Shown here: positions 15,421 through 55,382 of the stretch, piece by piece
Layout of the letters: every line of letters begins with the position of its first letter
Numbering within the stretch: position 1 is the stretch's first letter
The notes under the pieces: generated by a model
The model's database searches: none
What the model was told of the DNA's origin: nothing
Seen by the model: only the letters and a program-made list of their open reading frames with translations
Source of the DNA: Streptomyces zhihengii
Lineage (GTDB): Bacteria > Actinomycetota > Actinomycetes > Streptomycetales > Streptomycetaceae
Assembly (NCBI RefSeq): GCF_016919245.1
Contig: NZ_JAFEJA010000001.1
Location: 2,294,001-2,358,000, forward strand
Length of the DNA stretch: 64,000 nt
Reading direction: 5' to 3'
Program-made: the position numbers and the translations under genes

Positions 15421-16977
<1,557 letters not shown>

Positions 16978-25295: not shown

Positions 25296-26081
25296 GTGAC
25301 CACCACCGCTGACAGTGCCGCCATCACTGCCCAGGACCGCTCCCAGAGCCGATACGAGCCGGTGCATGCCATGAATGACGCAGCCACGCCCCCGGAGGGC
25401 CCCCAGCCCACCCGCTCGCTGCCCGGCAGGCCCCCAGGGATCCGGGCCGACAGCTCCGGCCTCACGGACCGGCAGCGGCGCGTCATCGAGGTGATCCGCG
25501 ACTCCGTGCAGCGCCGGGGATACCCGCCGTCGATGCGCGAGATCGGCCAGGCGGTCGGCCTGTCCAGCACCTCCTCCGTCGCCCACCAGCTCATGGCGCT
25601 GGAGCGCAAGGGCTTCCTGCGCAGGGACCCGCACCGCCCCCGGGCGTACGAGGTCCGCGGATCCGACCAGCCGAGCACCCAGCCCACGGACACCACCGGC
25701 AAGCCTGCGGCCTCCTATGTGCCGCTCGTCGGCCGTATCGCGGCCGGCGGCCCGATCCTCGCCGAGGAATCCGTCGAGGACGTCTTCCCCCTCCCCCGCC
25801 AGCTCGTCGGCGACGGCGAGCTGTTCGTGCTCAAGGTCGTCGGCGACTCGATGATCGAGGCGGCCATCTGCGACGGCGACTGGGTCACCGTCCGCCGCCA
25901 GCCCGTCGCGGAGAACGGCGACATCGTCGCCGCCATGCTGGACGGCGAGGCCACCGTGAAGCGCTTCAAGCGGGAGAACGGCCATGTCTGGCTGCTCCCG
26001 CACAACGCGGCCTACCAGCCCATCCCCGGTGACGAGGCCACGATCCTCGGCAAGGTGGTGGCGGTGCTCCGGCGGGTCTGA
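25296..26081 (+). CDS. lexA: SOS repressor LexA
   Basis: 261 residues from a GTG at 25296. An N-terminal extension (1-55) typical of Streptomyces precedes the winged helix ([40 protein letters not shown]). The self-cleavage site is the Ala-Gly bond in [14 protein letters not shown]. The catalytic Ser is in [11 protein letters not shown] and the Lys in [11 protein letters not shown]. It represses DNA-damage genes until RecA filaments trigger cleavage; recA is in this window with its own box. Two consecutive hairpins follow. Confidence 0.97.
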
Positions 26082-26296: not shown

Positions 26297-26477
26297 CTAG
26301 GCCTTGTCTGACAAATGGCGCCGTCCGCCCGCAGGGCGGGGCGCGCGGCGTCCGGTGCGTGCAATCGCAAGGCGGAGGATCACCCTCGTACTGGGCGTAC
26401 TCGGATGACTCCGACAACGCGGCGAGTGTGCGTGCCGGGCGTCGCGCGCCAGGCGGGATTTGTCAGACACGGCCTAG
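26297..26477. mobile_element. MITE-like element, 181 bp
   Basis: The terminal inverted repeats GCCTTGTCTGACAAAT (26301-26316) and ATTTGTCAGACACGGC (26458-26473) match at 15 of 16 positions. Each is flanked on its outer side by CTAG, a candidate 4-bp target duplication of the YTAR type seen with IS5-like transposases. The interior has no transposase and no long frame of its own. The right CTAG overlaps the dinG stop codon. Confidence 0.75.
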
Positions 26478-28444
26478 ACGCCCGCCGCCTTCGACGCCGC
26501 GTCGATCGCGGCCAGCGACCGCCGGGCCTGGTTGCGGTCGGTGGTGTACCAGAAGTCCGGCAGCGAGGCCCGCAGATAGCTGCCGTACCGCGCGTTGGCC
26601 AGCCGAGGGTCGAGCACCGCGACGACGCCGCGGTCCCCCGTGGCCCGCACCAGCCGTCCGGCGCCCTGGGCCATCAGCAGCGCCGCGTGCGTCGCCGCGA
26701 CGGCCATGAAGCCGTTGCCGCCGGCCTCCTCCACGGCCTTCTGCCGCGCGCTCATCAGCGGGTCGTCGGGCCGCGGGAACGGAATGCGGTCCATGACCAC
26801 GAGCTGGCAGCTCGGCCCCGGCACGTCCACGCCCTGCCACAGCGACAAGGTGCCGAACAGGCAGGTCTGCGGATCGGCGGCGAAATTCTTGATCAGCTCG
26901 CCGAGCGTCTCCTCGCCCTGGAGCAGGATCGGATTGTCCAGCCGCCCCCGCAGCTCCTCCGCCGCCGCCTGCGCCGCCCGCATCGACGAGAACAGCCCGA
27001 GGGTGCGGCCGCCGGCGGCCTCCACCAGCTCGGCCAGTTCGTCCATCATGTCGCCGCGCGAGCCCTCCCGGCCCGGCGTCGCCAGATGGCGGGCCACATA
27101 GAGGATGCCCTGCTTCGGGTAGTCGAACGGGGAACCGACGTCCAGCCCCTTCCACTGGGGCACGTCCTCTCCCCCGGTGCCCTCGGGGGCCAGCCCGAGG
27201 GAGGCGCCGACACCGTTGAAGTCGCCGCCGAGCTTCAGGGTCGCGGAGGTGAGCACCACCGACCGCTCGGTGAAGAGCTTCTCCCGCAGCAGCCCGGACA
27301 CCGACAGCGGCGCCACCCGCAGCGAGGCCCCGAAGCGGTCGTGGCGCTCGTACCAGACGACGTCGTACTCGGAGCCATGGGTGATCCGCTCCGCCACGGC
27401 GTGGATGCTCTCCACCGACGCCAGCGCCTGCTTGCGCACGGCGTCCTCGTCCTGGACCGACTTGTCGCGGGTGGAGCCCATCGCGGAGATCACCGTACGG
27501 GCGGCGTCGCGCAGCGCCATCAGCGCGTAGCCGAGGTCCTCGGGGACGGTCTCCAGGCGGCCCGGCAGGGCCAGCTCCATGACGCGTTCGAACCCCTCGG
27601 AAGCGGTCTGGAGGGCGTCCGCGGCCTTCTCGTTGACCAGCTTCGCGGCACGGCGGACCGCGCGGTTGACCTGGCCCGGGGTGAGCTCGCCCGTGGCGAC
27701 GCCCGTCACCCGGGAGACCAGCTCATGGGCCTCGTCGACGATCAGCACCTCGTGCTGGGGCAGCACCGGAGCGCCCTCGATCGCGTCGATCGCGAGCAGG
27801 GCGTGGTTGGTGACCACGACGTCCGCGAGCTTGGCGCGCTCACGGGCCATCTCCGCGAAGCACTCCGCCCCGTAGGCGCACTTGGAGGCGCCGAGGCACT
27901 CCCGGGAGGAGACCGAGACCTGGCTCCAGGCGCGGTCCGAGACGCCCGGGGTCAGGTCGTCGCGGTCGCCGGTCTCGGTCTCGTCGGCCCAGTCGCGCAT
28001 CCGCAGCAGGTCCTGGCCGAGCTTGCTCGTCGGGGCGGCGGCCTCGAACTGGTCGAAGAGGCCCTCCTCCTCGTCCTGCGGAGCGCCCTCGTGCAGCCGG
28101 TGGAGGCACAGGTAGTTCGACCGGCCCTTGAGCATGGCGAACTCGGGGCGCCGTCGCAGCAGCGGGTGCAGGGCGTCCACCGTGCGCGGCAGGTCGCGCT
28201 CGACGAGCTGGCGCTGGAGCGCCAGGGTGGCCGTGGCGACCACCACCCGCTCGCCGTGCGCCAGGGCCGGCACCAGGTAGCCGAGCGACTTGCCGGTGCC
28301 GGTGCCGGCCTGCACCAGGAGGTGGGAGCTGTCGTCGATGACTCCGGCAACGGCCTCGGCCATGCTGGCCTGTCCGGGCCGTTCCACACCGCCCACGGCG
28401 GTGACGGCGGCGTGCAGGAGCTCGGGGAGGGATGGCTTCGTCAT
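26474..28444 (-). CDS. dinG: DinG/XPD-type ATP-dependent DNA helicase
   Basis: 656 residues. SF2 helicase of the XPD/DinG group. Walker A is LVQAGTGTGKSLGYLV (about 35-50) and the DEAH box is VLIVDEAHELVSR. Between them are four spaced cysteines (NYLCLHRLHE, SSRECLGASKCAYGAECFAEMA) able to hold a 4Fe-4S cluster. C-terminal motifs include LFGTLSLWQGVDVPG and MAQGAGRLVRATGDRG. It unwinds DNA 5'-3' and acts on R-loops or damaged forks. I see no LexA box in front. Its TAG stop lies in the CTAG at the end of the MITE-like element, so the element may have altered the last codons. Confidence 0.92.
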   Translation of the reverse strand: MTKPSLPELLHAAVTAVGGVERPGQASMAEAVAGVIDDSSHLLVQAGTGTGKSLGYLVPALAHGERVVVATATLALQRQLVERDLPRTVDALHPLLRRRPEFAMLKGRSNYLCLHRLHEGAPQDEEEGLFDQFEAAAPTSKLGQDLLRMRDWADETETGDRDDLTPGVSDRAWSQVSVSSRECLGASKCAYGAECFAEMARERAKLADVVVTNHALLAIDAIEGAPVLPQHEVLIVDEAHELVSRVTGVATGELTPGQVNRAVRRAAKLVNEKAADALQTASEGFERVMELALPGRLETVPEDLGYALMALRDAARTVISAMGSTRDKSVQDEDAVRKQALASVESIHAVAERITHGSEYDVVWYERHDRFGASLRVAPLSVSGLLREKLFTERSVVLTSATLKLGGDFNGVGASLGLAPEGTGGEDVPQWKGLDVGSPFDYPKQGILYVARHLATPGREGSRGDMMDELAELVEAAGGRTLGLFSSMRAAQAAAEELRGRLDNPILLQGEETLGELIKNFAADPQTCLFGTLSLWQGVDVPGPSCQLVVMDRIPFPRPDDPLMSARQKAVEEAGGNGFMAVAATHAALLMAQGAGRLVRATGDRGVVAVLDPRLANARYGSYLRASLPDFWYTTDRNQARRSLAAIDAASKAAGV

Positions 28445-28497: not shown

Positions 28498-30360
28498 TCA
28501 CGGTGCCGCCAGCGGATTGGGCACCGTGCCGTGGACGGCCGCGTGGGGCCGGTGCGGGCGGTCGCGGTAGCCGTCGAGGTGGAGGCGGTTGCGGTTGAGA
28601 CAGAGCCGGTCGATGCGTTCCGTGAGCAGGTCGAACAGTTCGTAGCGCTCCTTCAGGTCGGGGAAGAGCGCCTGGTGGCGCAGGATCTCCTCCCTGACCA
28701 GGGCGAAGAACTGCTCCTCGGGGACGCCGAGCTGGTCCTCGGCGAGCGGGGCGAGGTAGCGGAAGACGCCCACGAAGAGCCCGGAGTGGATGAACTGGGT
28801 GAGGAAGGCGGGCTCCTCCGTCAGCAGCACCCCGCGCACCTCGGCCGGCATGGTGTCGTGCTCGGGCAGCGGCCGGGCGCTGATGTTCACGTCGTCGACG
28901 AAGTCCTTGATCGCCAGCCGCACCGGGACGTCGTGCTCGTCGTAGACCACGATGGCGTTCTCTCCGTGCGGGGAGAAGACCGTCCCGTAGCGGTAGAGGA
29001 AGCGCAGCAGCGGCGGCAGCAGCGCCGCGAACAGCCGCCGGAGCCAGACGGCGGGCGCCAGGCCCGAACGCTCCACCAGCTCGGCGACGAAGGCGCGGCC
29101 CGCCGGGTCGGTGTGCAGCAGCGAGGCGAGGGTGCGCGCCCGCTCCCCGGGGTCGAGACGGGGGACGAGGGGCTCGCGCCAGATGGCTCCCAGCAGCTCC
29201 TTGTACTGGTACGGGACGTCGTCGAGCCGGTCGTACAGCGGATGCTCGACCGTCACCGATGCGACCTCGCCGAGCAGGATCACCCGGCACTCGTCGCGCA
29301 GGAAGGCGTCCGCGTCGCGCAGGCCCTGCACCCAGGCGGTGACCGCGGGGGCGGCGAGCGTGCGCTCGGTCGGCAGCCCGCGCCAGACCAGGGTGTTGAG
29401 GACGGACAGCGGCAGCTTGACGGTGTGCCGTTCGGGCCGGCCGGTGTTCACGAAGGTGCGCACCGACTGCTGCGGCAGGCGCAGGTCCCCGTCGGTGGGC
29501 AGCGGCACGATCTCCCGGCGGGCGACGGCGGGCGCGTAGAGCGGGAGCAGCACCTCGTCCCACTGCCAGGGGTGCACCGGCAGGAGCAGATAGGCGGACG
29601 GGTCCAGGCCCTGCTCGCGCAGCGCCGCGTCGAACCGGGCGCGGGTGGCGTCGTCGAGTTCCCGGGCGTACAGGTCCGGCGGCAGCGCGAGGGCGGGGAC
29701 GCCCCGGTAGGCGGCGAGGCGGGTGCTGACCGCGATCCAGGGCAGGGCGGCGGGGCGGCGGGACTCCGGGGCCCAGCGCGCGGTGTCGGACGCGGAGAAG
29801 CCGATGCGGCCCTTGTTCAGGACGATCCACGGGTGTCCGGTCTGGTGGCCCTCCAGTTCGGCGTAGCCGAGTCCGGCCAGCTCGGCGGCGGTGAGGGCGG
29901 TGTGGTCGAGCGCGGTGTCGGCGGTGAGGGTGACGGAGAGCTCGCGCAGCAGGTGGCCGAGGGTGGCGCCGTCGATGCCGAGCGTCTCGCGGGCCCGGGA
30001 GAGGAAGGCCAGCGGGTCGGTGAAGGGCCGCCCGTCCCAGGCGACGGAGTCCGCCTCGACGCGCCAGCTCCCGTAGGCGCCCCGGCGGGCCCGGAAGGTG
30101 AGGCGGCCGGCGTCGCCGAGGCCGAGGACGTACGGGGCGGCGGCCGCGGCCCCGCCGGGGCCCGCGGGACCGGCGGTGTCGTCGTCGGGGCGCGGGGTGA
30201 GGATCTCCTCGTACGCGAACTCGCCGATCATCTTGGCCAGCAGCCGGCTCCCGGCGCGTTCCCAGTTCCGCGCGGTCAGCCCGGGCGGAGTGCCGAGCAC
30301 GGTGGGCGGCGGGGCGCCGGGCGCGGTGGTGGCGTCACGACGGGCGGGGGTCTTCGGCAC
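28498..30360 (-). CDS. NRPS-independent siderophore synthetase (IucA/IucC family), second in operon set
   Basis: 620 residues from the GTG at 30360, with GAGGAG 6 nt upstream. An IucA/IucC core (about 120-420) includes LEGHQTGHPWIVLNKGRIGFS-like family signature residues (GHP-x4-K-x-RIGF). A C-terminal FhuF-like part contains YRYGTVFSPHGENAIVVYDE and IKDFVDDVNISARPLP. Such enzymes adenylate a carboxylate, often citrate, and condense it with an amine. It is the last of four genes transcribed together (aminotransferase, NIS synthetase, acyltransferase, this gene). It probably carries out the second condensation, as IucC or RhbF do. Confidence 0.92.
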   Translation of the reverse strand: MPKTPARRDATTAPGAPPPTVLGTPPGLTARNWERAGSRLLAKMIGEFAYEEILTPRPDDDTAGPAGPGGAAAAAPYVLGLGDAGRLTFRARRGAYGSWRVEADSVAWDGRPFTDPLAFLSRARETLGIDGATLGHLLRELSVTLTADTALDHTALTAAELAGLGYAELEGHQTGHPWIVLNKGRIGFSASDTARWAPESRRPAALPWIAVSTRLAAYRGVPALALPPDLYARELDDATRARFDAALREQGLDPSAYLLLPVHPWQWDEVLLPLYAPAVARREIVPLPTDGDLRLPQQSVRTFVNTGRPERHTVKLPLSVLNTLVWRGLPTERTLAAPAVTAWVQGLRDADAFLRDECRVILLGEVASVTVEHPLYDRLDDVPYQYKELLGAIWREPLVPRLDPGERARTLASLLHTDPAGRAFVAELVERSGLAPAVWLRRLFAALLPPLLRFLYRYGTVFSPHGENAIVVYDEHDVPVRLAIKDFVDDVNISARPLPEHDTMPAEVRGVLLTEEPAFLTQFIHSGLFVGVFRYLAPLAEDQLGVPEEQFFALVREEILRHQALFPDLKERYELFDLLTERIDRLCLNRNRLHLDGYRDRPHRPHAAVHGTVPNPLAAP

Positions 30361-30419
30361 GGGGACTCCTCGGGTGGGTCCGATGCGGGGCGGACGGTGG
30401 AGGGAACGCGGCGGCACGG

Positions 30420-31157
30420 TCACAGCACCCCGCGCAGCGCGCGCTCCCGGATCATGAGCGCGGCCCGCTTCCCGGGCAGGGCGACCTCGGCGGAGAAGCG
30501 GAACCCGGCGGCCAGGAAGGCGGACACGGAGGGGGTGTTGCGCACATCGGGTTCGGCGACGACCCGTGCGCAGCGCGGGCGGAGATCCAGCACGAGGTCG
30601 GCGACGGCCCGCAGGAGCACGGACCCGACCCCCCGCCCGCGGTCCCGGGAGCCGCCGATCAGGACGTGCACGCCGGTGTCGTGCGGACGCGCCGGGTAGT
30701 GCCGGGCCAGTGGATCGAGGTCGGCCCGGTAGATCTCGAAGTAGCTCATCGCGGTGCCGTCGAGGACGCCCAGGCAGGGCGTGCTGTGGCCGGTGGCGAG
30801 CTGCTCGCGCAGATGGGCGAGGGTCACGGACTCGGGGCCCGCGAGCTCCCAGTAGGCCGCCACGGCCGGGTCGTTCATCCAGCCGGCCAGCAGGCCGAGG
30901 TCCCGTTCCGGGACGACGGGCACCAGCCGCAGGTCACCGGCGGAGGTGGCGACGGGCCCCCAGGGGGATGCACCGGCCGCGGGCGGCACCCCGCCGGGAG
31001 CCACGGCGTCACCGGCGGCGGGCCCCCAGGGGGATGCACCGGCCGCGGGCGGCACCCCGCCGGGAGCCACGGCGTCACCGGCGGCGGGCTCGTCGGGCCG
31101 GGGGCCGCCGGAGTGCGCGGCGGCGCCGTCGGCGCCGCGCGCTGCGGGTATGGGCAC
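30420..31157 (-). CDS. GNAT acyltransferase, siderophore type (IucB/RhbD-like)
   Basis: 245 residues from a GTG with GGAGACC upstream. The C-terminal 180 residues are a GNAT domain of the siderophore lysine/diamine N-acyltransferase type: LAGWMNDPAVAAYWELAG, TPCLGVLDGTAMSYFEIYRAD, HVLIGGSRDRGRGVGSVLL (acyl-CoA loop) and AEPDVRNTPSVSAFLAAGF. It presumably acylates an amine that the flanking synthetases couple. The first 65 residues are low complexity and contain a perfect 22-residue tandem duplication from a 66-bp DNA repeat (30954-31085). It sits between the two NIS synthetase genes. Confidence 0.88.
   Translation of the reverse strand: MPIPAARGADGAAAHSGGPRPDEPAAGDAVAPGGVPPAAGASPWGPAAGDAVAPGGVPPAAGASPWGPVATSAGDLRLVPVVPERDLGLLAGWMNDPAVAAYWELAGPESVTLAHLREQLATGHSTPCLGVLDGTAMSYFEIYRADLDPLARHYPARPHDTGVHVLIGGSRDRGRGVGSVLLRAVADLVLDLRPRCARVVAEPDVRNTPSVSAFLAAGFRFSAEVALPGKRAALMIRERALRGVL
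30954..31085. repeat. Perfect 66-bp tandem duplication
   Basis: Copies at 30954-31019 and 31020-31085 are identical and in frame, adding 22 residues to the acyltransferase N-terminus. Perfect identity suggests recent slippage. Confidence 0.95.
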
Positions 31158-31188
31158 GGGGGTGGTCTCCTCTCGTCGGCCGCGCCGC

Positions 31189-33249
31189 TCAGGAGTGGAG
31201 CGGGTTGGCGAGGGCGACGTAGACGGACTGGGTGTCGACGGGGCCGACGAGTTCGTCGAGGCCCCGCAGCCGGGTCAGCAGGTTCGCCTTGGAGCGGAGC
31301 ACGTCCGCGTCGAGGAGCCGGCCGGGCAGCGGGGAGCCCAGGGCCGTGTGGGCCGCGAGGAAACGGCGCAGGGCGGCGAGGAGCACCCGCTCGTCGGCGA
31401 GGCCCTGGGAACCGAACGCGCCGACGAGACCGAGGATGTTGTTGATCCCGAGGTAGTAGGCGAAGCGCTCGTCCGTGACGGCGTCGGAGACGAAGGTGTC
31501 GCTGGCGGTGCCGATGCCGGGCAGCCTGCGGTCGAGCGCCTCGCGGTGCGACTCGCGGAAGTAGTAGCCCTGGTTGTCCCGGTAGCGCCCGCCGGCCGGC
31601 CAGCCCTGCGCGTCGAGGAGGACCAGCGTGTTCTGCTGGTGGGCCTCCAGGGCGATGCCCGCGGTGGCGTCGAGCCACAGCACCGGCAGCACGACCTTGT
31701 CGAGGTAGCGCAGGAACCACTCGGCGGACACGGCCGCGCGGGGGCGGCCGGTGCGGGCGGCGAGGGTGTCGACGACGTCGGCGAGCCGCGAGTACGTCCC
31801 CTCCCGGCCCGGCATGGGGCGGGGCGAGGTGAGGGCGGCGACGCAGACCGCGTCGTCGCCGGGACCGAAGGGGTTGTGGCGCAGCACGACGTCGAGGCCG
31901 GCGACGGGGCCGCCGCCGGGGGCGTCGGCCCCGAGCCAGGCCGGGTCGCGGACGATGTCGAACCCGGGGTGGACGGCGCGCCACCGGTCGCCGAGCCCGG
32001 TGCGCAGCAGCCGGTGCACCTCGACGCCGCGGTGCAGCTCCTTGCGGAGGTTCTCCCGGCGGGAGTTGGTGATCCGCACACCGAGCGAGAGCTTGAGCAT
32101 CACCGGCGCACCGGGCCGGTGGACGGTGCGGACGGAGGAGGTGGGGTACCAGTCCTCGCCGTGCGCCCCCAGGTCGTGCAGCAGTCCGGCGTCGAGGAGG
32201 GCGGCCACGGCGGGGCGGTGCGCCAGGTCGCGCGCCTGCCAGGGGTGGAGCGGGAGGGCGGCGCACCCCTCGGGGACGGCGAGGCCCCCGGCGAGCCGGG
32301 CGGTGAGCCGCTCGGCGGGGAGCGGGCGGCCCTGCTCGGTCCAGGCGGAGTCGGTGGCGAGGACGGAGCGGTCGACGGCCATCCAGTGGAGGGCGAACGC
32401 GCCGTGCAGCTCCGGCGAGTAGCGCCGCACCTCGGACTCCGAGAGGCCCTCCCGGCTCTTCGGCGCGGGGTGCAGGGGGTGGCCGAGGAGCAGCGACTGC
32501 TCGGCGGCGAGGAAGTGGTCGGCGTGGGCGGGCGGCGCCGGGCGGCGGCGGCGCTCGGCGAGGAAGAGCGCGGTGTGCCGCACCGAGTCGGCGACGCGCC
32601 CCACGAGGTCGGCGCCCTCGGCCTGACCGGCCTCCCGGCCGAGCAGGGCGGCGACGGTGACCGCGTCGGCGGTGCCGGCCCCGCGCGGGCTGCCCTCCAG
32701 GACGGGGGGCCCGAAGCGGTGCCATCCGGCGGCGGACCAGTGGCGGACGGGGACGCGCAGCGCGGTGCCGCTGGCGTCGAGGGGGATGCGCAGGGTGTCG
32801 CCTGCGGGGGCGGGGATGCCGCGCTCCCGTACCCAGCAGCGCACCAGGTTCTCGCAGGCCGCGCCGTCCGCCGCCCGGTAGGGGTCCGGGTCGTCGAGAT
32901 GGTCCCCGGCGGCCGTGGCGGGACGGGGGCCGGTGCTCTCCGCGGCGGGGTCCACGGCCGCCGGGCGGGGAGCCTCGGGCACGGGGGCCGTCACGCCGGG
33001 AGCCTCGGGCACAGGCCCGGTCACCGGTTCCGGACGGGGGGCCTCCGCGGCGGGGTCCACGGCCGCAGGCCCCCTGCCGGGTGCGTCGCCCGGCCCCCTG
33101 CCGGGTGCGTCGTCGAGGCCGCCGCCCGACTGGCGGGGCACCGTCGGCGCCTCGCACGCGAGCGGGCCGCCCGTCGTGCCTCGGTCGTGGGGCGCGGCGG
33201 CGGGGCGGCCGTGGGCCTCGGGCACTTCGGGGGCGGGGGTGGGATTCAC
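31189..33249 (-). CDS. NRPS-independent siderophore synthetase (IucA/IucC family), first of two
   Basis: 686 residues from a GTG with GAGGAA 6 nt upstream. Residues 1-115 are a Pro/Ala/Gly-rich extension made of repeats (DAPGRGP twice, AAVDPAAE twice, VPEAPR variants). The core starts near DDPDPYRAADGAACENLVRC, has LLLGHPLHPAPKSREGL (substrate/ATP signature), VMLKLSLGVRITNSRRENLR (NIS motif), and a C-terminal FhuF-like region (ALEAHQQNTLVLLD, RDNQGYYFRESHRE). It should couple a citrate-like carboxylate to the amine made by the upstream aminotransferase branch. A later start that removes the extension is possible. Confidence 0.9.
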   Translation of the reverse strand: MNPTPAPEVPEAHGRPAAAPHDRGTTGGPLACEAPTVPRQSGGGLDDAPGRGPGDAPGRGPAAVDPAAEAPRPEPVTGPVPEAPGVTAPVPEAPRPAAVDPAAESTGPRPATAAGDHLDDPDPYRAADGAACENLVRCWVRERGIPAPAGDTLRIPLDASGTALRVPVRHWSAAGWHRFGPPVLEGSPRGAGTADAVTVAALLGREAGQAEGADLVGRVADSVRHTALFLAERRRRPAPPAHADHFLAAEQSLLLGHPLHPAPKSREGLSESEVRRYSPELHGAFALHWMAVDRSVLATDSAWTEQGRPLPAERLTARLAGGLAVPEGCAALPLHPWQARDLAHRPAVAALLDAGLLHDLGAHGEDWYPTSSVRTVHRPGAPVMLKLSLGVRITNSRRENLRKELHRGVEVHRLLRTGLGDRWRAVHPGFDIVRDPAWLGADAPGGGPVAGLDVVLRHNPFGPGDDAVCVAALTSPRPMPGREGTYSRLADVVDTLAARTGRPRAAVSAEWFLRYLDKVVLPVLWLDATAGIALEAHQQNTLVLLDAQGWPAGGRYRDNQGYYFRESHREALDRRLPGIGTASDTFVSDAVTDERFAYYLGINNILGLVGAFGSQGLADERVLLAALRRFLAAHTALGSPLPGRLLDADVLRSKANLLTRLRGLDELVGPVDTQSVYVALANPLHS

Positions 33250-33313
33250 GGGGCTTCCTCGGGGGGTGGGCCGGGGGGCGGCGGAAGGCGGTGACGGGCG
33301 CGGACGGGGTGGC

Positions 33314-34681
33314 TCAGCGGGGCGGGGCCGCCCCGGCCCCGGCGGTGCGCTCCGCTGCGGCGAGGGCGTCGGCGAAGCGGTCGAGGACGGCGGCGGCCTG
33401 CTCGTCGGTGAGGGTCAGCGGGGGCAGCAGCCGCACCACGGACGACTCCCGGCCGCCCAGTTCGACGATGAGCCCGCGCTCCAGGCAGGCCCGGCGGACG
33501 GCGACGGCGAGGCGGGGGGCCGGGGGCGGCACCGGCAGGTCGGGCGACTGGGACGCGGGGTCGACCAGTTCGACGCCGATCATCAGCCCCCGGCCGCGGA
33601 CGTCGCCGATGCAGGCGTGCGCGGCGGCGAGTCCCTGGAGGCTCGCGAGCATCCGGGCGCCGAGGCTCGCGGCGCGCTCGGCGAGGCCGTTCTCGCGGAC
33701 GTAGGCCAGAGTGGCGGCGCCCGCGGCCATGGCGAGCTGGTTGCCGCGGAACGTTCCGGCGTGGGCGCCGGGCTGCCAGGCGTCGAGCCCGGAGCGGTAG
33801 ACGATCACGGCGAGCGGGAGGGAGCCGCCGATCGCCTTCGACATGACCATCACGTCGGGCACCACGCCGCTGTGCTCGACGGCCCAGAACCTGCCGGTGC
33901 GCCCGACGCCCGTCTGCACCTCGTCGGCGATCAGCGGGATGGAGCGGTCGGCGGTCAGGACGCGCATCCGCCGAAGCCAGTCGTCGGGCGCCGGGATCAC
34001 CCCGCCCTCGCCCTGCACCGGCTCCAGGATCATGCCCGCCGGTGCGGGGACGCCGCCCCGGGGGTCGTCGAGGAGGTTCTCGGTCCACCGGGCGGCCAGT
34101 TCGGCGCCGCGGCCCCCGCCGGCCCCGAACGGGCAGCGGTAGTCGTACGGGTAGGGCAGCCGGGTCACCCCCCGGACGCCGGTGGCGCCGCCGGAGACGT
34201 CGAGGGCGCCGGCCGTCATGCCGTGGTAGGCGCCGGTGAAGGCGAGCATGCCCTGCCGGCCGGTCGCGGTGCGCACCAGCTTGAGGGCGGCCTCGACGGC
34301 GTCGGTGCCCGCCGGGCCGCAGAACTGGATCCGGGCGTCGTCGGCGAACCGCGGCGGCAGCGTGGCGAACAGCTCCGTGGTGAAGGCGTCCTTGACGGGT
34401 GTGGCCAGGTCGAGGACATGCAGCGGTGCGCCCGACGCGAGGACCTTCTTGATGGCCTCCAGGACGACCGGGTGGTTGTGCCCGAGGGCCAGGGTGCCCG
34501 CGCCGGACAGGCAGTCGAGGTAGCGGCGGCCGTCGGCGCCCTCGATCGTGAGGCCCCGGGCGCGTACGGGCACGATCGGCAGCGAGCGCGCGTAGGTGCG
34601 GGCCGCGGACTCGCGGAGCGACTGCCGGTGCAGGATCCCCTCGTGCGCGGTGGTCGGTGCCGTCGGGGCTGGTTCGGTCAC
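33314..34681 (-). CDS. Diaminobutyrate-2-oxoglutarate-type aminotransferase, class III (RhbA-like)
   Basis: 455 residues from the GTG at 34681. A TTG at 34687 is two codons earlier and better spaced from GGAGG (10 versus 16 nt), so the start is uncertain. It is a PLP enzyme: CLSGAGTLALGHNHPVV, FCGPAGTDAVEAALKL, AYHGMTAGALDVSG, LIADEVQTGVGRTG, and the PLP lysine in VMSKAIGGSLPLA. It moves an amino group between glutamate and aspartate semialdehyde to make 2,4-diaminobutyrate, as RhbA and EctB do. As first gene of the NIS operon it most likely supplies the diamine precursor. No ectoine genes are nearby. Confidence 0.9.
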   Translation of the reverse strand: MTEPAPTAPTTAHEGILHRQSLRESAARTYARSLPIVPVRARGLTIEGADGRRYLDCLSGAGTLALGHNHPVVLEAIKKVLASGAPLHVLDLATPVKDAFTTELFATLPPRFADDARIQFCGPAGTDAVEAALKLVRTATGRQGMLAFTGAYHGMTAGALDVSGGATGVRGVTRLPYPYDYRCPFGAGGGRGAELAARWTENLLDDPRGGVPAPAGMILEPVQGEGGVIPAPDDWLRRMRVLTADRSIPLIADEVQTGVGRTGRFWAVEHSGVVPDVMVMSKAIGGSLPLAVIVYRSGLDAWQPGAHAGTFRGNQLAMAAGAATLAYVRENGLAERAASLGARMLASLQGLAAAHACIGDVRGRGLMIGVELVDPASQSPDLPVPPPAPRLAVAVRRACLERGLIVELGGRESSVVRLLPPLTLTDEQAAAVLDRFADALAAAERTAGAGAAPPR

Positions 34682-34687
34682 GGCCAA

Positions 34688-35002
34688 GGCTGTCGGTCCT
34701 CCCGCTGGTGCGCCTGCTGGTCTCCCCCGGGCCCCGGCCCGCCGCGCCAACCCGGGGGCGGGCGGCGGCCGTTGTCCCGCTGGTACCAACGACGCGGGGC
34801 GCGGCGGATCACGGGGTGACGGGAAGATCCTTGGCGCGGCGGAACCGCGGACCTGCTGCACGCCGTCCCCAACGGCACCGGCATAGTGGGGGCCGCACCC
34901 GGTCACCGGGTGGTGCCGGAGACGGCACGCGACACCGACATGTACGACACGCTGCGACGTTCCCGACGAAGCGCGGCACCGAAGTCCCAGGGGGATCACG
35001 AG
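34688..35002. other. Divergent promoter region siderophore operon / protease 1
   Basis: 315 bp without a gene. I looked for the Streptomyces DmdR iron box (TTAGG-type 19-bp palindrome) on both strands and found none. No clear promoter hexamers were identified. Confidence 0.55.
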
Positions 35003-37853: not shown

Positions 37854-39344
37854 TCAGTGCGCCGCGGGTGTGCAGGACGCCAGCGCGGACGCCAGCTCCT
37901 CGTGCACCAGCGCCTTGAGCAGGGTGCCCTCCGTGGTGTGCTCCTCGGAGATCACCTCGCCCTCCGCGTGGACGCGGGAGACGAGTCCGCCCTGGGTGTA
38001 CGGGACGAGTGCCTCGATCTCCACCTCGGGCCGCGGCAGCTCGGCGTCGATCAGCTCCAGGAGCCGGGCGATGCCCGCGCCGGTGCGCGCCGAGACGGCG
38101 ATCGCGCGGCGCTCGATCCGCAGCAGCCGCTGGAGGACCAGCGGGTCGGCCGCGTCGGCCTTGTTGATCACCACGATCTCGGGCACGTCGACCGCGCCCA
38201 CGTCGCGGATGACCTCGCGCACGGCCGCGAGCTGCTCCTCCGGAGCCGGGTGCGCGCCGTCCACCACGTGGAGGATCAGGTCGGCGTCGCCGACCTCCTC
38301 CATGGTGGAGCGGAACGCCTCGACCAGGTGGTGCGGCAGGTGCCGGACGAATCCGACGGTGTCGGCCAGCGTGTAGAGGCGGCCGCCCGGGGTCTCGGCC
38401 CGCCGCACGGTCGGGTCCAGGGTGGCGAACAGGGCGTTCTCCACCAGGACACCGGCTCCGGTGAGGCGGTTGAGCAGGGACGACTTGCCCGCGTTGGTGT
38501 ATCCGGCGATGGCGACCGAGGGGACCTTGTTGCGCCGGCGTTCCTGGCGCTTGATCTCGCGGCCCGTCTTCATCTCCGCGATCTCCCGGCGCATCTTCGC
38601 CATCTTCTCGCGGATCCGGCGCCGGTCCGTCTCGATCTTGGTCTCACCGGGACCACGGGTGGCCATGCCGCCACCGCCGCCGCCGCCCATCTGACGGGAC
38701 AGCGACTGACCCCAGCCGCGCAGCCGCGGCAGCATGTACTGCATCTGCGCGAGCGCGACCTGCGCCTTGCCCTCACGGGACTTGGCGTGCTGGGCGAAGA
38801 TGTCGAGGATCAGGGCGGTCCGGTCGACCACCTTCACCTTGACGACGTCCTCGAGGTGGATGAGCTGGCCCGGGCTGAGCTCACCGTCGCAGACGACGGT
38901 GTCGGCGCCGGACTCCAGGACGATGTCCCGCAGTTCCTGCGCCTTGCCCGAACCGATGTAGGTGGCCGGGTCCGGCTTGTCGCGCCGCTGGACGACGCCG
39001 TCGAGCACCATGGCTCCGGCCGTCTCGGCGAGCGCGGCGAGCTCCGCGAGGCTGTTCTCCGCGTCCTGCACGGTGCCCGAGGTCCAGACACCGACGAGCA
39101 CCACACGCTCCAGGCGGAGCTGCCGGTACTCGACCTCGGTGACGTCCTCGAGCTCGGTGGAGAGGCCCGCCACACGCCGCAGCGCCGCACGCTCGGAGCG
39201 GTCGAGCTGCTCGCCGTCCCGCTCCGTGTCGATCTCGTGGCTCCAGGCGACGTCCTCTTCCATCAGGGCATCGGCCCGAAGGCTGTCGGTGCGCGTGTCC
39301 GCGAAGCTCTGCTCGGCCTGGGAAGGGGATGAAGAGGAGGTCAT
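37854..39344 (-). CDS. hflX: Ribosome-associated GTPase HflX
   Basis: 496 residues from the ATG at 39344 with AAGGA 6 nt upstream. The HflX N-terminal domain (EVEYRQLRLERVVLVGVW, ATYIGSGKAQEL) is followed by the coiled linker and glycine-rich loop (RQMGGGGGGGMATRGPGETK). Then comes the G domain with G1 GYTNAGKSS, G3 DTVGF, G4 NKAD and G5 SARTG. It splits stalled 70S ribosomes during stress. The position before rshA and dapF is standard for actinobacteria. A Ser/Asp/Glu-rich 75-residue N-terminus is longer than in E. coli. Confidence 0.96.
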   Translation of the reverse strand: MTSSSSPSQAEQSFADTRTDSLRADALMEEDVAWSHEIDTERDGEQLDRSERAALRRVAGLSTELEDVTEVEYRQLRLERVVLVGVWTSGTVQDAENSLAELAALAETAGAMVLDGVVQRRDKPDPATYIGSGKAQELRDIVLESGADTVVCDGELSPGQLIHLEDVVKVKVVDRTALILDIFAQHAKSREGKAQVALAQMQYMLPRLRGWGQSLSRQMGGGGGGGMATRGPGETKIETDRRRIREKMAKMRREIAEMKTGREIKRQERRRNKVPSVAIAGYTNAGKSSLLNRLTGAGVLVENALFATLDPTVRRAETPGGRLYTLADTVGFVRHLPHHLVEAFRSTMEEVGDADLILHVVDGAHPAPEEQLAAVREVIRDVGAVDVPEIVVINKADAADPLVLQRLLRIERRAIAVSARTGAGIARLLELIDAELPRPEVEIEALVPYTQGGLVSRVHAEGEVISEEHTTEGTLLKALVHEELASALASCTPAAH

Positions 39345-43340: not shown

Positions 43341-44237
43341 CTACGACTGGGGTTCGAGCAGCGCGGGTTCGATGCGGCCCTCGGCGACGATGACCGCGGG
43401 GCCGGACATCTCCACGACCCCGTCCGGGCGCTCGGTGATGACCAGTCTGCCGCCGGGCACGTCCACGGTGTAGGAGACCGGGACGCCCGTCACGGCCGGG
43501 TCGGCGCCGTCCCTGCGGGCCGCCGCCACGGCGACCGCGCAGGCGCCGGTGCCGCAGGACCGGGTCTCGCCGGATCCGCGCTCGTGGACCCGCATGGCGA
43601 CGTGCCGCTCGCCCCGGTCGGCGACGAACTCCACGTTCACCCCGCGCGGGTAGACGGTGGCGGGGGCGTAGCCGGGCTCCTCGTACAGGGTGCCCGCGTG
43701 GTCCAGGTCCTCGACGAAGGCGACGGCGTGCGGGTTGCCCATGTCGACGTTGGTCGCGGGCCAGCTCCGGGCGCCGACGGTGACGCGCACGCCGTCCGCG
43801 GGGAGCACGGCGCGCCCCATGACGACCGTGACGTCGCCCTCCTCGGATCCCTGTCCGGGCTTGGCGATGTGGACGTTCTTGACGCCGCCGCGGGTGGCGA
43901 CCGCGATCTCGCCGGCCTCGGCGTGGCCGGCGCGCTGGAGGTAGCGGGCGAAGACCCGGACGCCGTTGCCGCACATCTCGGCGACGGAGCCGTCGGAGTT
44001 GCGGTAGTCCATGAACCACTCGGCCTCGCCGGCCATGTGCCGGGCGTCCGGGTGGGCGGCGGAGCGCACGACGTGCAGCACCCCGTCGGCGCCGATGCCG
44101 GCCCGGCGGTCGCACAGCCGGGCGACGGCCGCCACGGACAGCTCGACGGCGTTGTCCGGGTCGGGGACGATCACGAAGTCGTTCTCGGTGCCGTGGCCCT
44201 TGAGGAAGGCGACGCCCGAGGTCTGCGCAGTGGTCAC
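43341..44237 (-). CDS. dapF: Diaminopimelate epimerase
   Basis: 298 residues from the GTG at 44237 (VTTAQTSGVAFLKGHGTEND). It converts LL- to meso-diaminopimelate for lysine and peptidoglycan. The first catalytic Cys is in DGSVAEMCGNGVRVFARY; the second is in SGETRSCGTGACAVAVAA. NSDGS and RGSGETRSCG are the substrate loops. Length is normal. It lies between rshA and the membrane protein and miaA, as in other actinobacteria, with a 52-nt gap from the gene upstream. The ribosome site is weak. Confidence 0.96.
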   Translation of the reverse strand: MTTAQTSGVAFLKGHGTENDFVIVPDPDNAVELSVAAVARLCDRRAGIGADGVLHVVRSAAHPDARHMAGEAEWFMDYRNSDGSVAEMCGNGVRVFARYLQRAGHAEAGEIAVATRGGVKNVHIAKPGQGSEEGDVTVVMGRAVLPADGVRVTVGARSWPATNVDMGNPHAVAFVEDLDHAGTLYEEPGYAPATVYPRGVNVEFVADRGERHVAMRVHERGSGETRSCGTGACAVAVAAARRDGADPAVTGVPVSYTVDVPGGRLVITERPDGVVEMSGPAVIVAEGRIEPALLEPQS

Positions 44238-44835: not shown

Positions 44836-45774
44836 TCAGGCTGTGACCGCTCGTTCGATCAACGACAGCGCGCGGCGCGGAAGTTCCGCCCGGTCCTCGG
44901 CGGCGCCGCTCAGCCAGCACACCCGAGGGTCGCGCCGGAACCAGGAGTCCTGGCGGCGCGCGAACCGCTTCGTGGTGCGCACGGTGTCCTCGCGCGCCTG
45001 CTGGTCGGAGCACTCCCCGGCGAGCGCGGCGAGCACCTGCTGGTAGCCGAGCGCACGCGAGGCGGTGCGTCCCTCGCGCAGTCCGGCGGCCTCCAGCGCG
45101 CGGACCTCGTCGACGAGTCCCGCCTCCCACATCCGGTCCACCCGGTCGGCGATACGGGTGTCGAGTTCGGGGCGTCCGACGTCCACACCGATCTGCACGG
45201 TGTCGTAGACGGAGTCGTGGCCGGGGAGGTTGGCGGTGAAGGGCCGGCCGGTGATCTCGATGACCTCCAGGGCCCTGACGATGCGGCGCCCGTTGCCGGG
45301 CAGGATGGCGCGGCCGGCCTCGGGGTCGGCGGCGGCGAGGCGGGCGTGCAGGGCGCCGGGGCCGTCGGCCTCCAGCTCCTCCTCCAGGCGGGCGCGCACG
45401 GCGGGATCGGTGCCGGGGAACTCCAGGGCGTCGATCGCGCCGCGGACGTACAGCCCGGATCCGCCGACCAGCACGGGGGTGCGTCCCTCGGCGAGCAGCC
45501 GGTCGATCTCGGCGCGCGCGAGGCGCTGGTACTCGGCGACGCTCGCGGCCTCGGTGACGTCCCAGATGTCCAGCAGCCGGTGGGGGACGCCGTCGCGCTC
45601 CTCGACCGTCAGCTTGGCGGTGCCGATGTCCATCCCCCGGTAGAGCTGCATGGAGTCGGCGTTGACGACTTCGCCGTCCAGCTGCTGGGCGAGGAAAACA
45701 CCCAGATCGGACTTTCCGGCCGCGGTGGGGCCGACGACGGCGATGACCCGCGGTGCGGGAGCTGCACTTCTCAC
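44836..45774 (-). CDS. miaA: tRNA dimethylallyltransferase
   Basis: 312 residues from the GTG at 45774. It transfers dimethylallyl to N6 of A37 in tRNAs reading UNN codons; MiaB, also in this window, then methylthiolates the base. P-loop VGPTAAGKSDLGV (about 13-25), NADSMQLYRGMDIGTAK (catalytic Asp), VLVGGSGLYVRGAIDAL, and the tRNA-binding TTKRFARRQDSWFRRD are all typical. The frame continues upstream to 46272, but similarity begins at VRSAAPAPRVIAVVG. It is the first gene of the leftward miaA / membrane protein / dapF run. Confidence 0.96.
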   Translation of the reverse strand: MRSAAPAPRVIAVVGPTAAGKSDLGVFLAQQLDGEVVNADSMQLYRGMDIGTAKLTVEERDGVPHRLLDIWDVTEAASVAEYQRLARAEIDRLLAEGRTPVLVGGSGLYVRGAIDALEFPGTDPAVRARLEEELEADGPGALHARLAAADPEAGRAILPGNGRRIVRALEVIEITGRPFTANLPGHDSVYDTVQIGVDVGRPELDTRIADRVDRMWEAGLVDEVRALEAAGLREGRTASRALGYQQVLAALAGECSDQQAREDTVRTTKRFARRQDSWFRRDPRVCWLSGAAEDRAELPRRALSLIERAVTA

Positions 45775-52949: not shown

Positions 52950-53735
<786 letters not shown>

Positions 53736-53792
53736 GACCTGGATCCCACCCCCGATCCATCACTTCGCTCCAACTCTAGGGAAGTCATCATC

Positions 53793-54638
53793 ATGAAGCT
53801 TCGCAAGGTCACCGCCGCCTCGGCCGCCGTGCTCGCGATCACCCTGACGGCCACCGCCTGCGGCGGCGGCGAGAAGGACAGCGCCGACACCGGCTCGTCC
53901 GGCGGCGGCGAGAAGGTCACCATCGGCATCAAGATCGACCAGCCCGGTCTCGGCCTGAAGACCCCCGACGGCTCGTACTCGGGCTTCGACGTGGACGTCG
54001 CCAAGTACGTGGCCAAGGAGCTCGGCTACGACGAGAAGAACATCGAGTTCAAGGAGACGAAGAGCGCCGACCGCGAGACCGCGCTCTCCCGCGGCGACGT
54101 CGACTTCATCGCCGCCACCTACTCGATCACCGACGAGCGCAAGCAGAAGGTCGACTTCGCCGGCCCCTACCTGCTCGCCCACCAGGACCTGCTGATCCGC
54201 GCCGACGAGGACGTCAAGGACGGCGAGGACCTCAACGGCAAGAAGCTCTGCTCGGTCACCGGCTCGACCTCCGCGCAGAACGTCAAGAAGGACTTCGCCC
54301 CGAAGGCCCAGCTCAAGCAGGTCGGCACCTACTCCGAGTGCCTCGCCGCGCTGCAGAGCGGTGCCGTCGACGCCCTGACCACGGACGACTCGATCCTCGC
54401 GGGCTACGCCTCGCAGGACCAGTACAAGGGCAAGTTCAAGCTGGCCGGCCTCAAGCTGAGCAACGAGAACTACGGCATCGGCGTGAAGAAGGGCGACCAG
54501 GAGATGGTCGACAAGATCAACGCCGCCCTGGAGAAGATGGTCCAGGACAAGTCGTGGGACAAGGCTGTCCAGGCCAACTTCGGCCCGGCCAACTACCAGA
54601 ACGAGCCCGCGCCGAAGATCGGCAACATCGTCCAGTGA
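53793..54638 (+). CDS. gluB: Glutamate-binding lipoprotein
   Basis: 281 residues. The signal peptide carries the lipobox LTATAC (Cys23), so it is a lipid-anchored extracellular receptor. The SBP_bac_3 fold is evident: GIKIDQPGLGLKTPDGSYSGFDVDVAKYVA, SRGDVDFIAATYSITDERK and LCSVTGSTSAQNVKKDF. It delivers glutamate to GluCD. It starts 57 nt after gluA. A 10-bp-arm hairpin after it (54654-54678) may raise its level relative to the permeases. Confidence 0.95.
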   Translation: MKLRKVTAASAAVLAITLTATACGGGEKDSADTGSSGGGEKVTIGIKIDQPGLGLKTPDGSYSGFDVDVAKYVAKELGYDEKNIEFKETKSADRETALSRGDVDFIAATYSITDERKQKVDFAGPYLLAHQDLLIRADEDVKDGEDLNGKKLCSVTGSTSAQNVKKDFAPKAQLKQVGTYSECLAALQSGAVDALTTDDSILAGYASQDQYKGKFKLAGLKLSNENYGIGVKKGDQEMVDKINAALEKMVQDKSWDKAVQANFGPANYQNEPAPKIGNIVQ

Positions 54639-54653
54639 AGTACGGCCGCACGG

Positions 54654-54678
54654 CGCGCCGCCCGCTGAGGGCGGCGCG
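54654..54678 (+). other. Intra-operon hairpin between gluB and gluC
   Basis: CGCGCCGCCC and its complement (10-bp arms) with a 5-nt loop, 16 nt past gluB. Such structures often stabilise or partly terminate mRNA after a binding-protein gene. Confidence 0.6.
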
Positions 54679-54713
54679 TCCGGCCTTCCCCACACGCGGA
54701 AGCACGGGAGATC

Positions 54714-55382
54714 GTGTTCGACATTTTTGAAGGCTACGACCTGCTCGGGGCGTTCTGGGTCACGGTGAAGCTCACCGTCTTCTCCGGGATCGGTGCCCTG
54801 GTCCTCGGGACCGTGCTGGCCGCGATGCGTGTCAGTCCCGTCCCGCTGATGCGCGGCTTCGCCACCGTCTACGTCAATGTGGTCCGGAACATTCCGCTGA
54901 CCGTCATCATCGTCTTCTGCTCGCTCGGTCTCGCCGACATCTTCGGCATGACCCTGGGTGCGTCGGACGACTTCGACGAACTGGCGTTCCGGCTGGCCGT
55001 CCTCGGCCTGGCGGCCTACACCGCGGTCTTCGTCTGCGAGGCCGTGCGCTCGGGCATCAACACGGTGCCGGTGGGCCAGGCGGAGGCGGCGCGCGCGATC
55101 GGGCTGAGCTTCACCCAGGTCCTGAGGCACATCGTGCTTCCGCAGGCATTCCGCTCCGTGATCGGCCCGCTGACCAACGTGCTGATCGCCCTCACCAAGA
55201 ACACCACGGTCGCGTCGGCCATCGGCGTGGCCGAGGCGGCTCTCCTGATGAAGGAGATGATCGAGAACGAGGCGCAGCTCCTGCTGATCTCGGCGGTGTT
55301 CGCCCTCGGGTTCGTGATCCTGACCCTGCCCACCGGTCTCATCCTCGGCTGGGTCGGCAAGCGCATGGCGGTGAAGCGATGA
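54714..55382 (+). CDS. gluC: Glutamate ABC importer permease GluC
   Basis: 222 residues from a GTG with GGGAGA 3 nt upstream. HisM-type inner-membrane permease with about five hydrophobic helices. The cytoplasmic loop EAARAIGLSFTQVLRHIVLPQAFR (EAA motif, about 125-147) docks with GluA. NIPLTVIIVF and LTKNTTVASAIGVAE are typical of polar amino-acid permeases. It overlaps gluD by 4 nt (ATGA), implying coupled translation. Confidence 0.94.
   Translation: MFDIFEGYDLLGAFWVTVKLTVFSGIGALVLGTVLAAMRVSPVPLMRGFATVYVNVVRNIPLTVIIVFCSLGLADIFGMTLGASDDFDELAFRLAVLGLAAYTAVFVCEAVRSGINTVPVGQAEAARAIGLSFTQVLRHIVLPQAFRSVIGPLTNVLIALTKNTTVASAIGVAEAALLMKEMIENEAQLLLISAVFALGFVILTLPTGLILGWVGKRMAVKR

Follow-up and report, generated by a model that had tools for sequence, protein, structure and literature searches.

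Which product can be expected from a siderophore operon that lacks two of the enzymes found in its closest relatives? The question is raised by csbA, csbB, csbC and csbD, four genes on the minus strand at 28498-34687 of a 64,000-nucleotide stretch (the window, G000:C1:2294001-2358000) of a 9.73 Mb Streptomyces genome, the genus being supported by named relatives. The genes lie between dinG-lexA and hflX and encode predicted enzymes of nonribosomal peptide synthetase-independent siderophore (NIS) biosynthesis. An earlier note on this DNA had assigned them the functions of rhbA, rhbC, rhbD and rhbF, and identities of 38-55% to the Rhb proteins bear this out. It had also found the decarboxylase and the N-hydroxylase missing from the operon, and had proposed that either the ligand is a different one, perhaps for a metal other than iron, or the missing steps come from elsewhere.

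We consider it likely that a rhizobactin/schizokinen-type NIS pathway is split in two here, with csbABCD as one half and a distant two-gene operon, coding for a 2,4-diaminobutyrate (Dab) decarboxylase-like protein (DDC) and an N-hydroxylase-like protein (NMO), as the other. The gene content, the synteny, the grouping in trees and the associated absences are observed. The cluster itself is already known; new are the distant pair that completes csb, the unsplit form at the same site and the link to schizokinen. If the split is true, a very common and so far product-less Streptomyces NIS cluster gains an enzyme set and a testable product, published Streptomyces schizokinen assignments are explained, and two internal genes of an operon ended up at a distant, stable site with the pathway seemingly still under selection. 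Cluster boundaries could then conceal parts of a pathway, and the lack of an iron box would become a question.

The csb genes and a distant decarboxylase-hydroxylase pair

CsbA (33314..34687, minus strand, like the other three) is a predicted RhbA-like L-2,4-diaminobutyrate--2-oxoglutarate aminotransferase and matched the class III aminotransferase family PF00202 with 294 bits. The longer reading frame enclosing csbA matched the NCBIfam model dat (TIGR00709) with 478 bits, above the cut-off. Its identity was 55% to RhbA of pSymA and likewise 55% to the aminotransferase of the PCC 7002 plasmid pAQ7. CsbB (31189..33249) is a putative type A NIS synthetase of the RhbC/IucA kind (PF04183 and PF06276; IucA_IucC, 229 bits), with the type A enzyme IucA (5jm7) as its closest solved structure and identities of 40% to RhbC and 38% to the PCC 7002 synthetase; its conservation begins at about residue 122, after a low-complexity N-terminal part. 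CsbC (30420..31157) appears to be an RhbD/IucB-like GNAT N-acyltransferase with a repeat-bearing N-terminal extension (PF13523, 164 bits), with MbtK as its best solved relative and identities of 39% to RhbD and 36% to the PCC 7002 GNAT. CsbD (28498..30423, alternative start 30360) is a putative RhbF/IucC-like type C synthetase (PF04183 and PF06276; IucA_IucC, 245 bits). Its closest solved structures are the type C enzymes DesD, DfoC, AlcC and IucC, and its identity was 47% to the PCC 7002 type C synthetase, 38% to RhbF and 35% to DesD of the same genome. On inspection the motif residues were intact. Spacings of 64 bp and 31 bp, followed by a 4-bp overlap, fit a single operon.

The N-terminal extension of CsbC contains a 66-base tandem repeat and that of CsbB shorter repeats (window 30948-31089 and 32968-33106). 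For CsbC of Streptomyces sp. YIM 121038, the accessible text describes an extension of roughly 80 residues that is rich in proline (PMC9600172).

The own-genome searches gave no match to the PF13434 hydroxylase or PF00282 decarboxylase families inside the window, in agreement with the earlier note. A search of the whole genome, which the note had suggested, found a match to each of the two families, side by side, at C1:6183136-6185447. They belong to a two-gene operon, G000:C1:6182974-6185786, 3.85 Mb from csbA, in which DDC (L133:7975-9348, 457 aa) and NMO (L133:9348-10787, 479 aa; PF13434, 373 bits) overlap by 1 base, flanked by pepN and a 2',3'-cyclic-nucleotide phosphodiesterase gene. Among the own-genome matches of the NIS synthetase and GNAT families, none lay near the pair. 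NMO adjoined DDC in all 30 of the best DDC loci (own genome counted) and in 20/20 further loci.

The closest PDB entry to DDC was the Dab decarboxylase 2qma, and its top NCBIfam model was RhbB (NF052646, 274 bits, far under the cut-off of 900). For NMO the top model was a putative histamine N-monooxygenase (396 bits, cut-off 700). Its closest solved structures were the flavin adenine dinucleotide-dependent N-hydroxylases 6xbb, 5o8p (desferrioxamine-type L-lysine 6-monooxygenase, DfoA-type) and 7us3 (putrescine N-hydroxylase), and its identity to RhbE was 42%. The pyridoxal phosphate-binding lysine of DDC and the nucleotide-binding motifs of NMO were intact.

The predicted functions of the four csb proteins and of DDC and NMO, six together, are those of a schizokinen-type pathway. 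Schizokinen is citrate with two N-acetyl-N-hydroxy-1,3-diaminopropane arms. CsbA would supply L-2,4-diaminobutyrate, DDC would convert it to 1,3-diaminopropane, and NMO would hydroxylate one amine of this diamine. CsbC would then acylate the hydroxylamine to give a hydroxamate, after which CsbB would couple one such unit to citrate and CsbD would add another. The expected outcome is a citrate siderophore with two hydroxamates, most probably schizokinen, with acetyl as the acyl group. Every enzymatic step, the acyl group and the product are thus probable assignments read from the proteins. The earlier note had made its view depend on the absence of such a pair acting with the operon from elsewhere; the pair exists, and its joint action with csb is suggested by sequence comparison.

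Rhizobactin 1021 rhbABCDEF on pSymA of S. meliloti has all six functions, and csb keeps this order minus B and E, which in Streptomyces lie 3.85 Mb away; the comparison, with proteins 38-55% identical, covered the six rhb genes. The pAQ7 cluster of Picosynechococcus PCC 7002, whose product we take to be synechobactin, a schizokinen relative, has the same order, A-DDC-B-C-NMO-D. Its proteins gave the top bit score among the references for all six, with small margins over DesA and DesB in the case of DDC and NMO. It differs in being a single cluster and in having an MFS gene that precedes a GNAT-fused type C synthetase. By its genes, csb is predicted to work like the schizokinen/rhizobactin pathway.

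The genome also has a complete desABCD cluster (C1:5277466-5282510), whose decarboxylase, hydroxylase, GNAT and type C synthetase belong to families that are also represented in csb and the pair. DesA and DesB might fill the missing steps with cadaverine in place of diaminopropane, as could be imagined for the DDC-less genome G196 discussed below. We regard this as quite improbable. With cadaverine the Dab aminotransferase CsbA would be pointless, and the genomes of S. mutomycini and S. halstedii have csb and no desD (this search covered desD, not desA or desB). Because of these genomes and the existence of a dedicated pair, this explanation was set aside as the main one. Nor is csb itself a des cluster: desABCD lacks the aminotransferase and the type A synthetase present in csb, and des stands separately. 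CsbB, CsbC and CsbD scored far higher against pAQ7 or rhb proteins than against Des proteins, and CsbA has no Des counterpart. In addition, des carries iron boxes of 19/19 and 17/19, whereas csb has none.

Synteny and phylogeny of the six genes

The NMO family search covered 121 genomes, 93 of them from other genera; 91 of these matched, and 20 of the 91 loci, from 14 genera, were read. Three loci, representing three other Streptomycetaceae genera (L257, L258 and L260), had A-DDC-B-C-NMO-D adjoining dinG-lexA, in the rhbABCDEF order, with two extra genes between the operon and dinG in L257 and L258. Another three (L253-L255) showed A-DDC-B-C-NMO at dinG-lexA without D, and one (L256) the same operon without both A and D. 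B-C-NMO without A and DDC was found in four loci (L249-L252), three of them with D, while L259 and L261 had A-DDC-NMO arrangements at sites other than lexA-dinG. The remaining seven (L262-L268) had DDC-NMO as a split pair, a count that covers the pair's own site. In six of the seven the pair stood beside pepN or the phosphodiesterase gene as in Streptomyces; L266 showed neither.

Outside this sample, a locus of another family (L200, table entry with 6% contamination) read LexA, DinG, D, NMO, C, B, DDC, HflX, DapF, MiaA, and its HflX-DapF-MiaA flank is like that of the window. Seven loci of family f17 (L211-L216, L219) had the six genes in rhb order, some of them partial. Around csb in Streptomyces, neither DDC nor NMO was found inside the stretch read in any of 80 named loci, 63 of them longer than 18 kb. 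All four csb genes were present in 57 of the 63 long loci.

In the NMO tree (52 rows; both trees are quick trees), the 19 split-pair rows and L261 formed one clade (100), nested within the operonic Streptomycetaceae rows (92) and apart from DesB. In the DDC tree (48 rows) the 19 split-pair rows, L261 and L202 formed one clade (100), which joined the operonic DDC rows at 99, apart from DesA, RhbB and the f17 rows. From gene order, synteny and phylogeny, the pair can be read as the relocated B and E genes of the same ancestral operon. In the ancestor the six genes probably formed one operon at the lexA-dinG site, and B and E would have moved together on the branch that gave rise to Streptomyces and a number of its sister genera; the direction of this move is probable.

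Three loci of genus g135 (L249, L250 and L252) retain another subset of the operon at lexA-dinG, namely B-C-NMO-D with A and DDC missing, perhaps reflecting another diamine or another split. No GNAT was called in L201 and L206, where a glutamine-synthetase-like gene follows the type C synthetase (Pfam was run on these two); L205, L207, L209 and L210 have the same arrangement, judged by position. CsbD was gone from beside dinG, with csbB and csbC kept, in L085, L098, L117, L131 and L132, in G096, G197 and G236, and in L253-L256 of another genus. In these cases a different enzyme may perform the second condensation, or this step may not take place.

Distribution and joint loss in Streptomyces

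Presence was scored in 295 Streptomyces genomes, one per species, with cut-offs of E ≤ 1e-60 for CsbB, ≤ 1e-80 for DDC and ≤ 1e-110 for NMO, which were chosen after viewing the tables and hand-read. CsbB was present in 283/295 genomes, DDC in 271/295 and NMO in 285/295. Such prevalence of CsbB shows a grouping of csb far beyond chance. DDC was absent from 11 of the 12 csbB-negative genomes, compared with 13 of the 283 csbB-positive ones (Fisher 9e-13, kinship ignored), and NMO from 5/12 and 5/283, respectively.

For 20 genomes that departed from the main pattern the dinG site was read, and for 16 of these the pepN site as well. Four apparent csbB losses (G027, G136, G201 and G271) were contig ends; with these artefacts removed, DDC was absent in 8/8 csbB-negative and 13/283 csbB-positive genomes (Fisher 2e-10). 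Some DDC-negative, csbB-positive genomes were also contig ends (G078 and G255), whereas G196 and G007 are genuine exceptions. The presence/absence tables look cleaner than reality. DDC E-values from 1e-88 to 1e-125 were scored as present without individual inspection, including the rearranged G011, in which DDC and NMO are both partial, and the site reading omitted G094, G118, G128, G149 and G191, while G096 and G236 were left unscored as loss or artefact.

Between dinG and the next neighbours, csb was deleted in G013, G026, G031, G127, G129, G139 and G212. It was also deleted there in G089 except for a CsbA-like frame, and G049 had lost C, D and most of A. DDC was absent in all nine of these genomes. 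In G026, G089 and G129 the gap between pepN and the phosphodiesterase gene was 70-82 bp, a clean deletion of the pair alongside the loss of csb, and in G139 the pair was absent beside pepN. For G031 and G127, absence of DDC means no match in fragmented assemblies.

These losses, full and partial and in several lineages, would be expected if csb were a decaying relic whose conservation is incidental. This is very improbable: CsbB is kept in nearly all genomes with 71-80% identity among the matches listed, the motif residues are intact, and an element upstream of csbA is retained in 62/66 loci. Moreover, according to the text available for YIM 121038, attempts to disrupt csbC did not succeed (PMC9600172).

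The same genomes bear on the proposal that csb needs no partner and yields a citrate-Dab carboxylate or amide ligand without hydroxamates, and that the orphan pair serves another purpose. In its favor, DDC (G196) or the whole pair (G007) is absent from a few genomes that have csb, NMO is retained in some csb-less genomes, and the available text on YIM 121038 reports no hydroxamate product (PMC9600172). Gene order, the common site, the tree grouping and the associated loss speak against it, and no other NIS synthetase or GNAT stands next to the pair as a possible partner. We therefore consider it improbable. Of the two options in the earlier note, steps supplied from elsewhere agree with the DDC-NMO pair, and neither the different ligand nor another metal found support. 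A different carboxylate ligand and another metal were both dropped, since genes that fit the absent functions have been located, cluster in trees with the operonic copies and are prone to disappear along with csb.

Several observations weigh against the split pathway. NMO was kept at the pepN site in G212, G013 and G049 (L343, L344 and L345) after DDC had gone and csb was deleted or decayed, so NMO may have a second use. G196 kept csbB and NMO and lost DDC, G007 kept csbB and csbD with no pair beside pepN, and G009 kept four csb genes with no DDC match and a divergent NMO match. Such genomes may be en route to losing the pathway, or may have another partner. In the pepN tree, the seven csb-loss genomes with pepN require about 4 losses, 3 of them on starred branches, and the sign test gave p 0.25, there being too few losses for significance. 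In this test the DDC state was entered as equal to the csb state, following the site reading. The count excluded G007, G027, G078, G136, G197 and G271, and G196 is not in the tree, so that it contains no counter-example. Among the 63 long named csb loci, csbD was absent in 5 and csbA in 2.

The homology of the pair is also less than decisive. DDC scored 242 bits against the pAQ7 decarboxylase and 232 against DesA of the same genome, being about equally near DesA and RhbB, and NMO scored 343 bits against the pAQ7/rhb references and 302 against DesB, a small margin. The substrate predicted for DDC is not fixed by homology, and parts of two papers show that lysine decarboxylases of the DesA type also carry the annotation of Dab decarboxylase (PMC6011815, PMC9854754).

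Product class and regulation

The csb cluster of YIM 121038 has the same four genes and order, the neighbours DinG, LexA and NrdR, and no hydroxylase; in the accessible portion of the report it is a cryptic cluster that lacks an iucD-like gene (PMC9600172). That portion names neither a product nor a decarboxylase/hydroxylase partner; the present analysis proposes a candidate for the partner locus and a class for the product. S. coelicolor sco5799-5801, which we equate with csb by annotation order and not by sequence, are termed a putative siderophore cluster in the sections seen of S. coelicolor papers. In titles and abstracts on Streptomyces schizokinen or Dab decarboxylase, with most subscription journals outside the coverage, the partner locus was not named.

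Schizokinen itself has been assigned in Streptomyces. By liquid chromatography-mass spectrometry (LC-MS) it was found in S. anulatus RLA103 and attributed to its BGC 1.15 (PMC11865988), and it was assigned tentatively or putatively in S. mutomycini SL02 and Streptomyces sp. SL03 (PMC13136089), as far as the available parts of both papers go. In the S. mutomycini genome behind L068 (a draft, from a strain other than SL02), the only two NIS synthetases share a contig and coincide in position with csbB and csbD. With no NIS synthetase outside csb, csb is the sole NIS candidate in that genome.

The acyl group may be otherwise. If it were succinyl, the split pathway would stand and the product would be bis(N-succinyl-N-hydroxy-diaminopropane) citrate instead of schizokinen. 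CsbC of YIM 121038 N-succinylates desertomycin A and several other amines in vitro with succinyl-CoA and acetylates poorly, as stated in the accessible text (PMC9600172). These assays used antibiotics as substrates and not the hydroxylamine, in the same accessible text (PMC9600172), and acetyl-type schizokinen was assigned in the three strains above, one of which belongs to S. mutomycini, a species whose genome shows no NIS synthetase competing with csb. A succinyl product is unlikely on balance.

For acetyl-type schizokinen as the product, the published chemistry adds further objections. The YIM 121038 enzyme succinylated antibiotics and acetylated them poorly, and no csb product is reported as detected in that strain in the text available (PMC9600172). 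The schizokinen reports are LC-MS assignments in strains other than the one whose genome was used here, and the S. mutomycini link is to a draft genome in which the search covered the NIS synthetases.

For regulation, a 19-base DmdR-type iron box consensus was scanned against the window and the upstream regions of csbA and DDC. In the window the best score was 13/19, far from csbA, and upstream of csbA it was 9/19 at most; the earlier note's statement that no DmdR box lies upstream holds. Across 66 named csbA upstream regions the best was 13/19, in 2/66, and across 43 DDC upstream regions 12/19 at most, both near the level of shuffled sequence. An overlooked iron box was rejected, as none of these 66 or 43 regions reached at least 14/19. 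Four other loci with siderophore-type genes in the same genome had iron boxes of 16-19/19. Regulation thus seems unlike that of other Streptomyces siderophores, given the lack of an iron box here and in nearly all 66 csb loci. In one subclade (L086, L092 and L096), the csbA upstream regions have a common GGTAAGGCGAACCTTG, a weak iron-box-like palindrome of 12-13/19 whose core is absent from the other 63, and iron control there remains conceivable.

A promoter-like element, CGTGAT-N16-CGTTGG, lies upstream of csbA at 34786..34813 (minus strand) and has no second occurrence in the window. The pattern CGTG[AT]T-N14-18-CGTTGG was present upstream of csbA in the 62/66 named Streptomyces loci mentioned above, and in none of 20 shuffles of the set. 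The DDC upstream regions have a different conserved block, CTTTCG[AG]GT in 31/50 and TCGTTG in 27/50. No regulator site shared by the csb and DDC-NMO loci was proved, a further point against the split pathway. The CGTTGR -10-like element and the 16-base spacing presumably resemble BldN promoters. A BldN-type sigma factor as the csb regulator stayed an idea, and the excerpts of one BldN paper gave no consensus.

Published expression data, as given in the accessible parts of each paper, differ between csb and des. In S. coelicolor, SCO5799 and SCO5801 were up at 48 and 72 h of MII by log2 1.3 to 1.8, while desA was up by 1.1 at 24 h and down by 3.7 and 3.2 at 48 and 72 h (PMC3610822). In copper-loaded spores SCO5800 fell, and desB and desD rose (PMC6414726). 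Two results count against separate control: over-expression of SCO3201 lowers both sco5799-5801 and des (PMC7324645), and in a sediment study siderophores appeared in significant amounts in one iron-unsupplemented medium only (PMC13136089). As a tentative and rather speculative model, a near-universal schizokinen pathway of Streptomyces, divided between two fixed chromosomal sites, might be off DmdR control and be driven in late development by a conserved promoter resembling those of extracytoplasmic function (ECF) sigma factors, serving aerial hyphae or spores and not the usual response to iron starvation.

The syntenic boundary at one end of csb consists of a dinG-type helicase gene (26474..28444, minus strand, PF13307), which is a neighbour of csb, or of the larger operon, both in Streptomyces and in further genera, and lexA (25296..26081, plus strand, PF00717 and PF01726). 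At the opposite end are hflX (37854..39344, minus strand), then dapF (43341-44237) and miaA (44836-45651), all three by Pfam. Between 21177 and 44237, where all genes were Pfam-scanned, the order is NrdJ, NrdR, LexA, DinG, csbD to csbA, two open reading frames without a match, HflX, an M1 peptidase, a RelA/SpoT-like gene and DapF, then MiaA. The earlier note had seen no adjacent uptake gene, and none was found among these scanned genes. Within the 27 of the 50 window genes that were scanned, the closest ABC importer, of the SBP_bac_3 family, lies 18 kb from csbA (52950-56284), and an MFS gene at 15502-16977.

Genome-wide, there were five IucA_IucC matches, namely csbB, csbD, desD and a further two that belong to a separate cluster on C2. 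The latter (G000:C2:918062-924065; L134:8063-14066) contains an ATP-grasp enzyme, the two IucA/IucC synthetases and a fold-III pyridoxal phosphate-dependent decarboxylase, and is flanked by an FhuF-like gene, with an iron box of 16/19.

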